From: Rubrivivax sp.
GTDB taxonomy: Bacteria > Pseudomonadota > Gammaproteobacteria > Burkholderiales > Burkholderiaceae_C
NCBI GenBank assembly: GCA_020852865.1
Contig: JADYZZ010000027.1
Location: 1 to 64,000 of the forward strand
DNA length: 64,000 nt
Direction: 5' to 3'
Shown here piece by piece: positions 1 to 7,490 of this stretch. Below the pieces are notes generated by a model. That model worked only from the letters and a program-made list of their open reading frames with translations, was not told where the DNA came from and made no database searches. The stretch's first letter is position 1, and every line of letters begins with the position of its first letter. A program made the position numbers and the translations under genes.

Positions 1-815
1 ATGAGCCTGGGCGACGGCTTGCCCGGTATCATCGCGGTGGTGATGATGATGTCGGCGTCACTGGCCTGCTCGGCGTACATCTTGCGCTGCGCGGCCTGGA
101 AGCCCTCGCTCATGACCTTGGCGTAGCCGCCGCCGCCCGCGCCTTCTTCCTCGTAAGCGACCTTGACGAACTCGCCGCCCAGCGACACCACCTGGTCGGC
201 GACTTCGGCGCGCGTGTCGTTGGCGCGCACGATCGCGCCCATGTTGGCGGCCGTGCCGATCGCCGCCAGGCCCGCGACGCCGGCACCGGCGATGAAGACC
301 TTGGCCGGCGGGATCTTGCCGGCGGCGGTGACCTGGCCGTTGAACAGCCGCCCGAAGGCGTTGGCCGCCTCGATCACCGCGCGGTAGCCGCTCACGCCGG
401 CCATCGAGGTGAGCGCGTCCATCTTCTGCGCACGGCTCAACTGCCGCGGCAGCGAGTCGATGGCGAGCACGGTGGCCTTGCGCGCCGCCAGCTGCTGCAT
501 CAGCTCGGGGTTCTGCGCCGGCCAGACGAAGCCGATCAGCGTGCCGCCTTCGCGCAGCAGCGCCACCTCGTCCGCCGTCGGCGGGCGCACCTTGAAGACG
601 ATGTCCGAGCGCGCCCACAGCTCGGCCGCTGCCGGCAGCACCTCGGCGCCGGCGGCGCGGTAGCTGTCGTCGCCGAAGTTGGCCGCTTCGCCGGCGCCGC
701 TCTCGACGGCGACCGCGAAGCCCAGCTTGACGAGCTTCTCGACCACCTCGGGTACGGTGGCGACGCGCTTCTCGCCGGCGGCGATCTCCCTCGGCACTCC
801 GATACGCAAAGCCAT
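1..815 (-). CDS. pntA: NAD(P) transhydrogenase subunit alpha, N-terminal part (partial, runs off left edge)
   Basis: Proton-translocating transhydrogenase alpha subunit, which transfers hydride between NAD(H) and NADP(H) at the inner membrane together with the beta subunit. The visible 271 residues begin MALRIGVPREIAAGEKRVAT and contain the glycine-rich NAD-binding motif GAGVAGLAA at about residues 177-185, followed by the ANDTR segment typical of the family. The start is the ATG at 815, preceded by GAGGAG eight bases upstream. No stop codon is seen before the left edge, so the C-terminus is missing and it cannot be told whether this is the split form (PntAA, about 370 residues) or the full-length alpha subunit. 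Confidence 0.93.
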   Translation of the reverse strand, partial: MALRIGVPREIAAGEKRVATVPEVVEKLVKLGFAVAVESGAGEAANFGDDSYRAAGAEVLPAAAELWARSDIVFKVRPPTADEVALLREGGTLIGFVWPAQNPELMQQLAARKATVLAIDSLPRQLSRAQKMDALTSMAGVSGYRAVIEAANAFGRLFNGQVTAAGKIPPAKVFIAGAGVAGLAAIGTAANMGAIVRANDTRAEVADQVVSLGGEFVKVAYEEEGAGGGGYAKVMSEGFQAAQRKMYAEQASDADIIITTAMIPGKPSPRL

Positions 816-1118
816 GGATTCGACTCCTCAGGTTGTTCGTCGGGGCTGCAGCGCCTGCGGCGGCGGTCGGCACGGCGCCGGGGCGTCCGCCTTCGGCGGA
901 CGCTCGCGCCGACGCCGTGACGCGCGGCGCCCGGCTGCAGCACGCCGTCCGGCGAAAGCTCGCCCTTCGGCCAAAGGAGTGAAGCTACCACAGCGGCCGC
1001 CTGCCGCGACGCGGCCGCAGCGCCGGCGCCCACGAAGAAGCGCCCGGCCCGAGCGCGCCGGCGCCGGCGGCGTCCTGCGCCAACGGAATCCGGCGCGCGG
1101 CGCCCGCGCCGCGCGCCG
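816..1118. other. Intergenic region with one GC-rich hairpin
   Basis: About 300 bases between two minus-strand genes. The only structure seen is a perfect 9-bp inverted repeat (883-891 with 895-903, loop TTC). It could terminate transcription of the upstream 60-residue gene, but no T-run follows on the minus strand. No convincing gene was found here. Confidence 0.4.
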
Positions 1119-1301
1119 TCAGCGCTCGCCCTTTCCGCGCGACTTCAGCCTTGCCTGCGCCAGCCCGGCAGCCAGCGCACCGGCGGCCATGGCGATCCAG
1201 ACACGGTATTCGCCGCCGATCTGCAGGGCATTGAGCAGCAGCACGAGGGGAATCGAGACAACGAGGAACGCCGCCGCCGGCACCCAGTGGCGCGGACTCA
1301 T
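1119..1301 (-). CDS. Small hydrophobic membrane protein, unknown function
   Basis: A 60-residue protein starting MSPRHWVPAAAFLVVSIPLV. It has two hydrophobic stretches, at about residues 7-22 and 32-46, with a basic C-terminus (RLKSRGKGER), so it is probably a two-helix inner-membrane protein. The reading frame continues upstream of this ATG, but the upstream part is arginine-rich and composition-driven. The internal ATG at 1301 was chosen because the hydrophobic protein begins there and a GCGGAG sequence lies just upstream. No family was recognised. Confidence 0.55.
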   Translation of the reverse strand: MSPRHWVPAAAFLVVSIPLVLLLNALQIGGEYRVWIAMAAGALAAGLAQARLKSRGKGER

Positions 1302-1566
1302 CGCCGGACTCCGCTCGCGGCACGCAGTGCCGAGCCGGCTCGCGCCGTCACCGGGATCCGCGCGCGCGCCATGCAGGCGCGCCCCGCGCTGTCGAGTCGG
1401 CACCTCATCGCGTGGGCCCCCTTCCGTCCAAGTCTGCGCGCGCCGACCCGGGCTGGGGCGGCTGCGCCGCGCACCGCTGCCGCAGCACCCGCTCGCGTCG
1501 GCAGCCGGCGCGGGTTGAGAAAGCTACCACAGCCGGCACGCGCCCCCGCCATTACCATCGGCGCCC

Positions 1567-3120
1567 ATGCCGCACAACCCACGCCGCTGGAGCCCGAGCG
1601 TCACGGTGGCCGCGGTCATCGAGGAGGGCGGCCGCTTCCTGCTCGTCGAAGAGCACACGCCCGAAGGCCTGCGGCTGAACCAGCCGGCCGGCCACCTCGA
1701 GCCGGGCGAGACCCCCGAGCAGGGCGTGGTGCGCGAGGTGCTCGAGGAGACCGCACGCCCCTTCGAGCCCGAGTCGCTGCTCGGCGTGTACCTGTCGCGC
1801 TTCGTGCGCCCGGCCGGCGGCGAGGACGTGACCTACCTGCGCCTGGCCTATCGCGGCCGCGTCGGCGCCGCGCTCGAAGGGCGCGCGCTCGACCAGGGCG
1901 TCGTGCGCACGCTCTGGCTCTCACCCGGGGAGATCCGCGCCGAGCGCGCGCGCCACCGCAGTCCGCTCGTGATGCGCTGCATCGACGACTACCTGAGCGG
2001 CCGCGCGCATCCGCTGGCCACCGTCGCCGCCGACGCATCGCTCGTGCAACCCGTGGTGCTGCTGCGCGACGCGCGGAGCGGGCGCGGCGATCCTGCGGGC
2101 GATCCTGCGGGCGATCACGCGGGCGATCACCCCGACGATCACCCCGACGATCACGCCGACGATCACGCCGACAATCACGCCGACGATCACGCCGACGATC
2201 ACGGCTTCGATCGTGACGACGATCCGGCCGCCCACCAGGCCGACGCCGAAGCGGCGGGGCAGGGCGGCGGTCTCGGCGACGGGCCGGGACGCGAAGACCC
2301 GCATGCCGAAGCCGGACCGCCCGCGCTGCCGACGGCAGCCGGCGACGCGATGCCGCGCGCGGCGCCGCCCGCGGCCCGCGAGCCGACGCTCGCGCAGACC
2401 GCCGCCGCACTCGCCGAGCGCTTCCCCGCGCTGTTCGCCGCCGGCGCGGCCAGGCCCGTCAAGCTTCGCATCCACGCCGACATCCAGCAGCGCGCGCCGG
2501 GTGTCTTCACGCGCCGGCAACTCGCCGTGTTCCTGCACCGGCACACGACGAGCACGGTCTACCTGCGCGCGCTGGCCGCCTCGGCGCAGCGCTTCGACCT
2601 GGACGGCGCGCCCGCCGGCGAAGTGGCGGCCGAACACCGCGAAGCGGCCGCCGTTGAAGTCGAGCGACGCCACCGGATCGCGCTCGAGCGTCGTGCCGCC
2701 GAACGCGCGGCCCGCGGCGGCGGCGAGCGCAACACCCCACACCGGCGGCGCTCGCAGGCCCGCGACGACCGCAGCGCCGGGGGGCCCGGGCGCACCGGCG
2801 GGCCCGGGCGCCCGGTTGGGCCCGCGCGCACCGATCGGCACGAGCCGCGCCGGCAGCCGCCAGGCCCCGCGCGCACGGACCCGAGTCGGCACCGACACGA
2901 ACCACCCCGACCGGGCGCCGCCATGCAGGAGCTCGCCGCGCCGCCGCCCGACGACCCGGCGAAGCGTGAACGCGCTCTGCTGCTGCGCGCCTGGGAAGGC
3001 TCGTCGCTCACGCAGGCCAACTTCTGCGCGCTCAAGGGCCTCGATGCTGCGCAGTTCGACGCGCAGATCGAACTGGCCCGCCGCGAACGCGCCGAACGAC
3101 AGGCGGCGCGCCCAGGCTGA
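1567..3120 (+). CDS. Nudix hydrolase fused to a FinO/ProQ RNA-binding domain through an Asp/His-rich repeat linker
   Basis: One 517-residue open frame with two unrelated parts. Residues 1-160 form a NudJ/YmfB-like Nudix hydrolase; the Nudix box runs from G42 to A63 with E48, R56-E57 and E60-E61 in place, and only the final Gly is replaced by Ala. Residues 175-214 are a linker encoded by a 12-bp repeat (units such as DHAD and DHPD). Residues about 273-375 are a FinO/ProQ domain (AERFPALF, PVKLRIHADI, RRQLAVFLHRHTTSTVYL, RFDLDGAPAGEV). A basic, Arg/Pro-rich tract follows. The last 65 residues contain LTQANFCALKGLDAAQFD, which I believe is the usual C-terminal module of Burkholderiales ProQ proteins. 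Nudix and ProQ are normally separate genes, so this is either a true fusion or two genes joined by repeat growth. An internal ATG at 2350 could start a separate ProQ protein. thpR follows after 6 bp. Confidence 0.8.
   Translation: MPHNPRRWSPSVTVAAVIEEGGRFLLVEEHTPEGLRLNQPAGHLEPGETPEQGVVREVLEETARPFEPESLLGVYLSRFVRPAGGEDVTYLRLAYRGRVGAALEGRALDQGVVRTLWLSPGEIRAERARHRSPLVMRCIDDYLSGRAHPLATVAADASLVQPVVLLRDARSGRGDPAGDPAGDHAGDHPDDHPDDHADDHADNHADDHADDHGFDRDDDPAAHQADAEAAGQGGGLGDGPGREDPHAEAGPPALPTAAGDAMPRAAPPAAREPTLAQTAAALAERFPALFAAGAARPVKLRIHADIQQRAPGVFTRRQLAVFLHRHTTSTVYLRALAASAQRFDLDGAPAGEVAAEHREAAAVEVERRHRIALERRAAERAARGGGERNTPHRRRSQARDDRSAGGPGRTGGPGRPVGPARTDRHEPRRQPPGPARTDPSRHRHEPPRPGAAMQELAAPPPDDPAKRERALLLRAWEGSSLTQANFCALKGLDAAQFDAQIELARRERAERQAARPG
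2089..2208 (+). repeat. 12-bp tandem repeat inside the Nudix-ProQ gene
   Basis: Ten consecutive 12-bp units, most of the form GATCACGCCGAC with variants GATCCTGCGGGC and GATCACCCCGAC. The unit length is a multiple of three, so changes in copy number keep the frame. Nine of the ten units contain GATC. On the sense strand they encode DPAG, DHAG, DHPD and DHAD tetrapeptides, giving a strongly acidic, histidine-rich linker. Confidence 0.95.
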
Positions 3121-3126
3121 GAGCCC

Positions 3127-3750
3127 GTGGGCGCCGTGCCCGCAGCGCAGCCGACGGCACGCCTGTTCGTCGCCGTCTGGCCGCCGGCGGGCGCGCGAGC
3201 CGCGCTCGCCGCGTGGCTGCGGCAATGGCAATGGGGCCCCGGTGCGGCCGTGGTGGCGCCGGCCCGTGTGCACCTGACCCTGCACTTCCTCGGCCAGGTG
3301 CCGCTCGCGCGGCTCGGTGCGCTGCAGGCGGCGCTGCCCGTGGCGGTGGCCGCGAGCGCCGCGTTCGAGCTCGAGTTCGGGCGCGTCGAGCGCTGGCCGC
3401 AGGGTCTCGTCGTGCTCGTCGCCGACGCACCCCCGGCGCCGCTGTTGCGGCTGCACGCCGCTCTCGCGGCCGTGCTGCGGGGCCTGGGGCTGGCGGTCGA
3501 GACGCGGCCCTACCGGCCGCATGTCACGCTGGCGCGCCGCGCCGCGGGCGCGCTTGCGCCCGTCACGACGCCCGCCCTGCGCTGGCGCGTCGACCACATC
3601 GCGCTGGTGCGCTCCGAGCGGGGCTACAGCGAGCTGCTGCGCTGCCCCTTGGGCGCAGCGAGTGCGGTGTCGGCTCGCGGCGACCCCTGCCAGCCGCCCC
3701 GCGGCAACGGCTGCGCGCCGGGGCAGCGGCTCAGGAGCCCACGAAGTTGA
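3127..3750 (+). CDS. thpR: RNA 2',3'-cyclic phosphodiesterase (2H family)
   Basis: A 2H phosphoesterase that hydrolyses 2',3'-cyclic phosphate ends of RNA (LigT/ThpR family). Both catalytic HxTx motifs are present: HLTL at about residues 49-52 and HVTL at 132-135. The start is a GTG at 3127, six bases after the stop of the upstream Nudix-ProQ gene, so the two genes are probably cotranscribed, which would put two RNA-related activities together. The last 35 residues after the conserved LLRCPLG are a non-conserved tail, and the final 20 bases overlap the 3' end of the convergent dockerin gene. Confidence 0.9.
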   Translation: MGAVPAAQPTARLFVAVWPPAGARAALAAWLRQWQWGPGAAVVAPARVHLTLHFLGQVPLARLGALQAALPVAVAASAAFELEFGRVERWPQGLVVLVADAPPAPLLRLHAALAAVLRGLGLAVETRPYRPHVTLARRAAGALAPVTTPALRWRVDHIALVRSERGYSELLRCPLGAASAVSARGDPCQPPRGNGCAPGQRLRSPRS

Positions 3751-5542
3751 AGATCCCCGAACCGAATTGGGGATTCTGCGGCGAGCGCGCCCGCACGAGG
3801 ATGATCACCGGTTCGAGCTTGATCGGGCCGCCCGAGCCGACGTAGTTGAATCCGTTGTCGTAGACCAGCTCGACGCAGGCGTCGGCGAGGCTGCTCAGGC
3901 ACCCACCGTCCCAGAAGCTGGTGGCGAAGGCCGAGTCCGGCTGCTGATGCGCATCCGCGTACGCTTTGCCTGCGGACTGGAGCGCGTCGAGCATGCCCTT
4001 GTAGAAATCGAACACCTGTCTGATGCTGGAGATCTGACCGAGCGAGCGGAACTGGTTGATCAGGCCGCTCACGGCGTTGACGGCAGCCCCACCGATCAGA
4101 AACACGTTAGCCGTCTGCGCGTCGGCCAGCGTCACCCCGGTCACCTCGATGACGCTGCCGGGCATGTGATAGGCATGAAAGCTCTGCGACGCGCCCGTAA
4201 TCAGCCCACCCACTCCGGCGGTCTGGCTCAGATACTGGTTCAGCAGCCCTTGTGCCGCGAGCAGGATCGCCATCTTCTGGACCTGATCGAGGTAGTCCCC
4301 GTATATCCTCTGGATCAGCCCGCCGATGTTGCCCGCGTAGCCCAGCAGTCCGGTGAGCAGGAACGTCGGCTGTCGCGGCGCGGGATAGGGCAGGCGAGAC
4401 GGCCTCGCCCGCGGCCCGGCTGCGGCGGGCAACGCGGCGGCGGCCACGAGGCCGTTTTGCTGCAGATCCGCGTTCACGCGTGCCGCCACCGACTTCAGGA
4501 CTGTCGGCATGTCCTGCGCCAGCAGATCATTGACGGCCAGCGAGTTGCTCGTCAGCCCGTACACGCTCGGCCGGTTCGCGGCCGCCTGCGACTGCGCCCA
4601 CAGCGCCTCGAGGTCTGCCGCGTACTGCCCCAGGGCCGCCGTGTCGGCCGCCGCATTGCCGCTGGGTTGGTCGAGCAGTTGCCGGATCTGCGCGAGCTTG
4701 GCGCGCAGCTGGCTGTTGAGGGCGGCGAAGTTCGCATCCGCCTGCGTCGGCGGAAATCCGCGGCTCGCCGCCTCGCTGCCGGTCGGCACGAAGCCGCTGT
4801 CCGGTTCGTACGGCGTGCTCAACGACATTGCATTCGCGTTCACGCCGGCTGCGGCCGCCGCCAGAGCGTTGCTCGCGGCCTGCACCGCGGCACTGTCGCC
4901 TCTTTGCAGGGCGGCCTGGATGGCGCCGACGTTGCTCACCAGCGAGGCCTGCGCCCCGGACAGATTGACGTACAGCCCCGAATTGGCCGATTGCGTGGCG
5001 TTCTGCAGCACCGTGAAGACGGCCTTGGTACTGATGCCGGTGCCGCGCACGCTGGCTTCGACGGTGAAGCTGCCGCGCGTGCTGCTGCCGGTGCTGACCT
5101 GGGTGCCGCCGAGCACGGGAGCCGCCCCGGAAGTCGTGTTCGGCGCCGGTGTCGCCAGCTTCAGGATGACGATCGGCGCCGGGCTGATCGCCTGGCCCGT
5201 GTTATCGAGCACCTTGGGCGTGAGCGTGACGGCGCTGCCCGCCCCCACCACGAGCTGGGGCAACGACAGCTGCATAGACGCCGGAAGCGTCGACGCCGCG
5301 CACCCCGCGTAGGTGCAGACGGTGGCGCAGCTGCGCGCGTCGGCAACGGTGATCTTGCCGTCGCCGTTGGCGTCGCGCGGATCGTTCGGGCCGCTCGCGT
5401 TCTGGCCGAGTGCACTCATGATGAGCGTGGCGTCGCGCGAATCGACCATCCCGTCGCCGTTGACATCGCAGCGCGCAGCGGCGCCGGCCTGCCCGGCGCC
5501 GAAGCCGAGTGCGAGCGCGATGACCAGGGCCTGGAGCTTCAT
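3731..5542 (-). CDS. Secreted protein with N-terminal dockerin domain
   Basis: A 603-residue exported protein. A signal peptide (MKLQALVIALALGFGAGQAG) is followed at about residues 24-70 by two dockerin/EF-hand calcium loops, DVNGDGMVDSRD and DANGDGKITVAD, each with the canonical D-x-N-x-D-G pattern. Next comes an Ig-like stretch (about residues 80-165), then an Ala/Gln-rich helical section and a hydrophobic Gly-rich region around residues 390-490; none of these was assigned to a family. The start is supported by AGGAGGAAC upstream. It lies 43 bp downstream of a cohesin-like PEP-CTERM gene on the same strand and is probably cotranscribed with it. Its GC content is visibly lower than that of its neighbours. 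The 3' end overlaps thpR by 20 bp in convergent orientation. Confidence 0.8.
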   Translation of the reverse strand: MKLQALVIALALGFGAGQAGAAARCDVNGDGMVDSRDATLIMSALGQNASGPNDPRDANGDGKITVADARSCATVCTYAGCAASTLPASMQLSLPQLVVGAGSAVTLTPKVLDNTGQAISPAPIVILKLATPAPNTTSGAAPVLGGTQVSTGSSTRGSFTVEASVRGTGISTKAVFTVLQNATQSANSGLYVNLSGAQASLVSNVGAIQAALQRGDSAAVQAASNALAAAAAGVNANAMSLSTPYEPDSGFVPTGSEAASRGFPPTQADANFAALNSQLRAKLAQIRQLLDQPSGNAAADTAALGQYAADLEALWAQSQAAANRPSVYGLTSNSLAVNDLLAQDMPTVLKSVAARVNADLQQNGLVAAAALPAAAGPRARPSRLPYPAPRQPTFLLTGLLGYAGNIGGLIQRIYGDYLDQVQKMAILLAAQGLLNQYLSQTAGVGGLITGASQSFHAYHMPGSVIEVTGVTLADAQTANVFLIGGAAVNAVSGLINQFRSLGQISSIRQVFDFYKGMLDALQSAGKAYADAHQQPDSAFATSFWDGGCLSSLADACVELVYDNGFNYVGSGGPIKLEPVIILVRARSPQNPQFGSGIFNFVGS

Positions 5543-5585
5543 CGTCGGTTCCTCCTGAACGGGTCTGCCCGGATGTGCCGGGGTC

Positions 5586-6182
5586 CTACTCCGCGCTGCG
5601 GCGACGCACGGCGGCGCCGACCACAGCCAGCCCGCCGAGCAAGCTGAGCAGGGTGGCCGGCTCGGGCACCGCGCTCACGGTGACGGCGGCTCCTGCGGGA
5701 AGGCCGGCTGCCAGGAGGCTGCCTGCGGCATCGGCCAGGTCCAGCTTCGTGACCGAAATCGCTGACGTGCCGACGCCGATTGCCTTGTAGGAAACCGTGG
5801 CCAGCGTGAAGCTCGCCGACTCCAGGTTGACGAGATCCGCCGGTTCTTCGAACGACAGATCGCTCAGCTCGAGCTGACCCGGCGCGGAGACCTTGGCCGA
5901 GAGCCCCCAAGTCACTCCCGGCAGATGCGAGACGGCCGAGGCGAAGTCGAGGATCGACGGGTCGAACGCCAATGTGATGCTGTAGGCCCCGAGCCCGGCC
6001 GGCAGGACGTCGCCGACGACGATGTCGAGCTGCGCGGTCTGGTCCTGAACGACCGATTGCGTCGCCGGCGCCAGCGTTACCGTCAGTGCGTTCGCGTCGG
6101 CGACGGCCAAACCTCCGAGCAGTGCGGCCAGCCCGCCCCAGCGAACCAGGCGGGCGAGTTTCATCGTTCGGATCAGCGGCAT
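5586..6182 (-). CDS. Cohesin-like domain protein with PEP-CTERM sorting signal
   Basis: A 198-residue exported protein. After the signal peptide (ending near ADANA), the mature part from LTVTLAPATQ has the alternating beta pattern of a cohesin domain (VVGDVLPAGLGAYSITLAFD, then VSYKAIGVGTSAISV). The C-terminus is a textbook PEP-CTERM tail: VPEP, a hydrophobic helix (LLSLLGGLAVVGAA) and RRRS. Exosortase would recognise and process this tail at the cell envelope. The start at 6182 was chosen because GGAGG stands six bases upstream. With the dockerin protein encoded next, it forms a potential calcium-dependent docking pair. The cohesin assignment is by pattern only. Confidence 0.85.
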   Translation of the reverse strand: MPLIRTMKLARLVRWGGLAALLGGLAVADANALTVTLAPATQSVVQDQTAQLDIVVGDVLPAGLGAYSITLAFDPSILDFASAVSHLPGVTWGLSAKVSAPGQLELSDLSFEEPADLVNLESASFTLATVSYKAIGVGTSAISVTKLDLADAAGSLLAAGLPAGAAVTVSAVPEPATLLSLLGGLAVVGAAVRRRSAE

Positions 6183-6343
6183 CGGTTTCCTCCACTTCGG
6201 GCCCGGATGGGCGGGCGAGCGACCCGGGGCATTTCGCCTCAACGCGGCCCCGGCACGCAACCCTCGATTCAAGGGGGGTGGCCGAGGTACAGCCGGCCGA
6301 GATCCACCTTCCGAAGCAATGTGTCGGCCATGCGGCGGCCGCG

Positions 6344-7367: not shown

Positions 7368-7477
<110 letters not shown>

Positions 7478-7490
7478 ATACTGCCGGCCC

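Follow-up and report, generated by a model that had tools for sequence, protein, structure and literature searches.

Is the RNA-binding protein ProQ made in this Rubrivivax genome as a protein of its own, or as the second half of a Nudix hydrolase? The question is raised by the first 64 kb of contig C27 in a genome of 4.19 Mb and 102 contigs (the window, i.e. the whole stretch of 64,000 nucleotides that was analysed and to which the coordinates refer), where an open frame of 517 codons plus TGA runs on the forward strand from an ATG at 1567 to position 3120 without any internal stop. A sequence-only reading of this DNA had described a single 517-codon frame joining a Nudix hydrolase to a FinO/ProQ domain, and this was confirmed, the frame being open and both Pfam domains being found in it. 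In the predicted protein, a NudJ-like Nudix domain is connected to a FinO/ProQ domain by a low-complexity linker, whose DNA contains 12-bp repeats; a basic linker then leads to a helical C-terminus that is conserved. Openness alone is little proof, as open frames are cheap at a GC content of 72.8%: stops are expected at 1.6% of random codons, and a stretch of 62 codons would stay open by chance with a probability of 0.37. The support for a fusion therefore comes from the comparison with relatives, in which the frame is also open, rather than from the open frame itself. From this comparison, a genuine fusion appears likely, in which a NudJ-type phosphohydrolase would be tethered to the only ProQ domain detected in the genome within one 517-residue chain, the two genes probably being made as one protein.

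Domains of the predicted protein

The NudJ-like Nudix domain is encoded at 1579-2061 (approximately residues 5-165) and is modelled with pLDDT values mostly above 90. Its residues 11-130 match Pfam NUDIX (PF00293) with 52.1 bits for a cut-off of 21.1 and, among solved structures, the whole domain is related in sequence to 2b0v (4.2e-39), a Nudix protein from Nitrosomonas europaea, and to E. coli NudJ, also called YmfB or Orf153 (3dku, 2e-14). The same two proteins are the top Foldseek matches, NudJ being the closest named relative by both sequence and fold, second after the unnamed 2b0v. The likeness extends over approximately residues 5-165, but the NudJ and 2b0v chains are about 150 residues long with nothing attached, whereas the fused Nudix domain carries ProQ. 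These matches, together with that to Pfam ProQ, bear out the earlier claim that a NudJ-like enzyme and ProQ share one frame. The Nudix box lies at 1690-1758 (residues 42-64) and was read against GX5EX7REUXEEXGU, which we take to be the complete motif. Residues G42, E48, R56, E57, E60 and E61 are present, while the late glycine is replaced by Ala63, followed by Arg, as in the relatives G487 and G472; G009 has a glycine at this place. The box previously called intact is thus so with respect to G42 and the charged catalytic residues, but not to the late glycine.

The FinO/ProQ RNA-binding domain follows at 2380-2727 (residues 272-387, pLDDT mostly above 90). In agreement with the FinO/ProQ core noticed beforehand, residues 277-377 match Pfam ProQ (PF04352) with 85.9 bits for a cut-off of 27, and the nearest solved structure is that of E. 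coli ProQ (5nb9, 2.3e-13). The score against NCBIfam NF003434, the RNA chaperone ProQ equivalog, is 54.2 bits for a cut-off of 127, so that the domain is placed in the FinO/ProQ family and not in that equivalog. The RNA-binding residues of E. coli ProQ, as given with their numbering in the accessible part of PMC7192607, are K35, K54, R58, Y70, L71 and R80. Four of these six positions are identical here in the alignment (K35, Y70, L71 and R80), K54 being replaced by Arg and R58 by Ala. While the FinO domain is shared with E. coli ProQ (5nb9) and with the minimal ProQ of Neisseria (NMB1681, 3mw6), the present protein differs from both by the enzyme at its N-terminus and by its helical C-terminus, which falls outside the NCBIfam ProQ match. 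Since a single ProQ match is found in the genome, the fusion frame is the only detected source of ProQ there.

In the AlphaFold model of the 517-residue protein, three confident units (Nudix, FinO and the C-terminal helices) are separated by two linkers with pLDDT values mostly below 50, the first predicted to be disordered (2101-2343, residues 179-259) and the second disordered and rich in Arg, Pro and Gly (2737-2913, residues 391-449). Given these low values and a pTM of 0.43, no fixed arrangement of the three units is predicted. The C-terminal helical segment (2947-3111, residues 461-515) is under codon constraint and is present in many ProQs of the genus according to tblastn; it has no match in Pfam or PHROGs, despite its conservation and the confident fold predicted for it. 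Besides, the NCBIfam ProQ model is matched only over positions 15-136 of 205, and an identity of this segment with the Tudor domain of E. coli ProQ is therefore unsupported. The "ProQ-type C-terminal tail" of the sequence-only reading accordingly stands as a segment common among the ProQs of the genus, without coverage by Pfam, PHROGs or NCBIfam.

The Nudix-proQ tandem in the genus

The systematic search for fusions covered the genomes of the genus, i.e. 81 genomes, many of them draft assemblies of hundreds of contigs; at least 76 of the 81 gave a match at an E value of 1e-9 or lower. Among the matches listed, Nudix and ProQ are neighbours on one strand in nine of the 81: G000 (the window's genome), G001, G009, G012, G465, G466, G472, G481 and G487. 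In the remaining genomes, again among the matches listed, the two are far apart or on separate contigs, or one of them is undetected; in G471, for instance, about 13 kb separate them. The apparent full-length matches of G024 and G457 contain several stops and have no FinO beside Nudix, their ProQ lying elsewhere, and were left out of the tandem count. A wider scan of named genomes, based on patterns from the Nudix part alone and including 14 loci shorter than 5,500 bases, revealed a FinO domain in one (L072) among the 80 loci listed, and thus sets no limit to the distribution of the fusion.

Both domains in one frame, which were to be sought in other species, were found: the frame is open from Nudix to FinO in six of the nine tandem genomes (G000, G001, G009, G472, G481 and G487). 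The other three do not read through and were counted against the fusion: a single stop interrupts an otherwise continuous frame in G012, and both a stop and a change of frame separate the two parts in G465 and G466. A stop between the two parts, which the sequence-only reading had named as evidence against its proposal, is therefore present in three of the nine tandem genomes and absent from the other three members of the window's subclade. By comparison, all 110 distinct non-tandem Nudix genes end 7-32 residues past residue 150 (median 16). The stop is thus read through in 6/9 tandem versus 0/110 non-tandem Nudix genes, a difference whose Fisher value of 2.4e-8 is a description rather than a clean probability, the nine tandem genomes being related.

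In a species tree of 30 genomes based on AlaS, LepA and RpoB, the nine tandem genomes form one clade (support 99), within which G472, G000, G001 and G487 form a subclade (support 100) with fused genes in all four. In the other half of the clade, two of the five genomes are fused and two inner nodes are weak (51 and 53). On that tree, simple parsimony needs two changes starting from a fused ancestor of the clade and three starting from a split one. It can be proposed from this distribution that, in the ancestor of one Rubrivivax clade, proQ came directly behind the Nudix gene, and that the Nudix stop would then have been lost in frame, leading ribosomes to read through into ProQ.

An assembly or binning artefact is a very improbable source of the joined frame. 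It is true that the repeats in the linker span about 139 bases and are difficult to resolve with short reads, that the contig of G001 ends within its fusion gene and that, in G481 (L054 5619-7132), the C-terminal part is not in the same frame as FinO, reflecting a frameshift or an assembly error. The gene order is nevertheless identical in nine genomes, and the frame is open in the three other genomes of the subclade, including G472, an assembly of about 50 contigs that is 99% complete with a contamination of 0.

The codon positions at which the window differs from G487, G472 and G009 indicate what has been maintained. In the Nudix domain, the FinO domain and the C-terminus, third-position changes are 1.6-3.5 times those at the first and second positions, and in the basic linker the third position changes more too. 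The first linker is very variable in both sequence and length; its three codon positions change about equally in comparison with G487 and G472, the third being somewhat higher in comparison with G009. This pattern suggests that the domains have been maintained as proteins, and that in the first linker it is mainly the frame that has been kept. At the junction, i.e. the codons located around and past the usual position of the Nudix stop as judged from relatives, 5' of the repeats (2053-2085), a codon-position bias may be present, but it is weak: for the short junctions, GC3 minus GC2 is 0.10, a value that 109 of 5000 shuffles attain; in the window's subclade, GC3 of the junction codons is below GC1.

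These observations also bear on a narrower form of the fusion reading, compatible with it, according to which one long protein is made but its halves work independently, the joining only saving a stop and a promoter or fixing the ratio of the two. The chances of this are about even. A first linker that is long, predicted to be disordered and very variable would suit it, as would the pTM of 0.43 with no fixed contact and the side-by-side but split genes of two lineages; on the other hand, the frame is kept in 4/4 genomes of the window's subclade, and a tether can matter without a conserved sequence.

The 12-bp repeats and the inner proQ start

The Asp/His-rich linker had been described as built of 12-bp repeats, whose expansion was suggested to have removed the stop and start between the two genes. 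The repeats are real, TRF reporting an array at 2086-2224 with rows at 2086-2128 and 2112-2203, but the causal part of the claim fails. Repeats were ruled out as the cause of the fusion, since the fused relatives G487, G472, G001, G009 and G481 lack them and the whole subclade has lost the Nudix stop. They appear to occupy about the place of proQ's own ATG in relatives. In the window's genome, they may thus have overwritten the inner proQ start at a later stage, in which case a single chain of 517 residues would be expected as the main product.

No in-frame ATG, GTG or TTG is found at 2059-2349 of the window, GTG codons being located just before, at 2053 and 2056. Between the Nudix domain and FinO, ATG occurs in frame just once, as the codon of Met262 (2350-2352), a possible start of a separate ProQ. 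A start there leaves the whole FinO domain, which was counted against the fusion as main product. This raises an alternative in which two proteins share one frame: ProQ would come mainly from an inner start (ATG 2350 here, the old ATG in relatives) with a promoter of its own, and the read-through would be an accident tolerated at high GC, where, as stated above, open frames cost little. In the relatives, several observations agree with it. The proQ ATG is still in frame in G472, G001, G009 and G481 and, in three of these (G472, G001 and G481), the hexamer GACAAT lies 7-9 bases upstream, so a separate ProQ is likely made in these four genomes. More broadly, GACAAT is found 7-38 bases 5' of a plausible ATG in 16 of 31 proQ loci of the genus (13/22 non-tandem and 3/9 tandem) for an expectation of about 0.003 per 45-base window, several ATGs per locus being allowed, and it might be a -10 element.

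Other observations, on the window's genome and on G487, speak against it. A counterpart of Met262 was not found at the matching place in G001, G009, G472 or G487. GACAAT is present in one repeat copy (2170-2175), either as a possible -10 remnant or by chance, and this sole occurrence within 1501-3200 sits 174 bases 5' of ATG 2350, against 7-38 bases elsewhere. In addition, no TANNNT hexamer was found on the forward strand at 1901-2400, nor any Shine-Dalgarno-like stretch 5' of 2350 by eye. In G487, GCCCAT stands in the place of GACAAT, and owing to a difference of one base the old ATG is outside the FinO frame, while the frame from Nudix to FinO is itself open. The old ATG positions were compared by eye from codon listings; a MAFFT alignment of the junction DNA did not align the ATG reliably. 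That none of the 110 non-tandem Nudix genes has lost its stop also speaks against a tolerated read-through, and ProQ production mainly from an inner start is considered rather unlikely.

In two of the four genomes of the subclade, ProQ thus seems to come mainly from the fused frame, the old proQ ATG having disappeared from the window and being out of frame in G487. The clade hence displays side by side split genes, fused genes with the inner start kept and fused genes with the inner start lost, a series useful for studying how neighbouring genes become one.

Possible role of the tethered enzyme and neighbouring genes

According to the accessible part of a review (PMC9977716), complex FinO/ProQ proteins carrying extra folded domains are known and have been mined with AlphaFold. 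The present protein resembles them in having an extra folded domain on the FinO core; the word Nudix is absent from the main text of that review. Among the papers searched, none combines "FinO domain" and Nudix, and those mentioning both ProQ and Nudix, judged by title, are not about such a protein. No earlier description of a Nudix-FinO/ProQ fusion was thus found, and the protein can be regarded as a FinO/ProQ family member with a NudJ-like partner.

If the fusion is genuine, as preferred here, the NudJ-type phosphohydrolase would be followed in the full-length product by an acidic, flexible Asp/His linker leading to FinO, and then by a basic linker and the helical segment at the C-terminus. 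Such a protein would most likely work as an RNA chaperone with a loosely tethered NudJ enzyme. Tethering would provide both activities in a fixed ratio and hold the enzyme near ProQ-bound RNA, so that the two halves might be functionally linked. E. coli NudJ is a phosphohydrolase acting on nucleotides, HMP-PP and DMAPP, as stated in the accessible part of PMC12359138. In the light of these substrates, the most cautious assumption is that the fusion connects nucleotide or cofactor housekeeping with RNA-bound ProQ by having them expressed together and in the same place. With a natural ProQ that carries an enzyme, it could be asked directly whether ProQ brings a nucleotide-processing enzyme to RNA.

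The fused domain was also considered as the cell's RppH. RppH, the bacterial RNA pyrophosphohydrolase, is likewise a Nudix enzyme and has RNA 5' ends as its substrate. This candidate was ruled out, as a clear and separate RppH is encoded elsewhere in the genome (L228), with 342.1 bits against NF001935 (cut-off 259) and three of five PRK00714 models passed, whereas the fused protein has no PRK00714 match at E up to 1 and reaches 21 bits against TIGR02705 (cut-off 154.4). The two proteins share membership of the Nudix family but are different. With RppH encoded elsewhere, a direct role of the fused enzyme on RNA 5' ends, though possible, is unsupported, and processing of RNA caps by it is speculation. 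A more elaborate version, in which FinO would grip the 3' terminator hairpin of a transcript, the long acidic linker would allow the Nudix domain to reach this transcript, or an RNA paired with it, and trim its 5' phosphate or cap, and the product of the downstream thpR-like gene would handle 2',3'-cyclic decay ends, is regarded as improbable. Were it true, ProQ would decide which transcripts get marked for decay.

The thpR-like gene (3127-3750, forward strand) begins 6 bases after the stop of the fusion and encodes an RNA 2',3'-cyclic phosphodiesterase, as had been noted from the sequence; its product matches NCBIfam TIGR02258 with 86.3 bits for a cut-off of 65.7. thpR adjoins proQ in all four genomes of the subclade and in one genome outside it (G027), and the proQ-thpR pairing is therefore not confined to fused genomes. 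It was not found beside proQ in the stretches examined from the five other tandem genomes, that of G466 ending soon after proQ.

On the other side, the Nudix gene is divergent from a gene on the reverse strand (1-815) that we named pntA from its sequence, presumably for the alpha subunit of NAD(P) transhydrogenase. A pntA-like gene adjoins the Nudix gene in all nine tandem genomes, and the Nudix-adjoining pntA genes of the genus are of two kinds, about 86-87% (L034, L054, L055 and L061) or about 45% (L032, L052, L053 and L056) identical to that of the window. In two genomes from other families of the order (L030 and L031), the neighbour of the Nudix gene is what we take to be mnmA, in contrast to the present locus, where it adjoins pntA and is joined to ProQ. 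The divergent region between pntA and the Nudix gene contains two copies of the element AAGCTACCACAG (982-993 and 1521-1532), and similar elements occur 5' of the Nudix gene in G487, G001 and G465; they are possibly promoter parts.

An Rfam search of positions 1-6000 gave no match at E 0.5. Further downstream, the protein encoded on the reverse strand at 3731-5542 has an N-terminal repeat (DVNGDGMVDSRD, DANGDGKITVAD) that we assume to be dockerin- or EF-hand-like, and a small secreted-looking protein, encoded on the same strand at 5586-6272, ends in what we take to be a PEP-CTERM-like motif. Finally, a 7-bp repeat, CCGCGAA, occurs in about 16 copies at 7368-7478.
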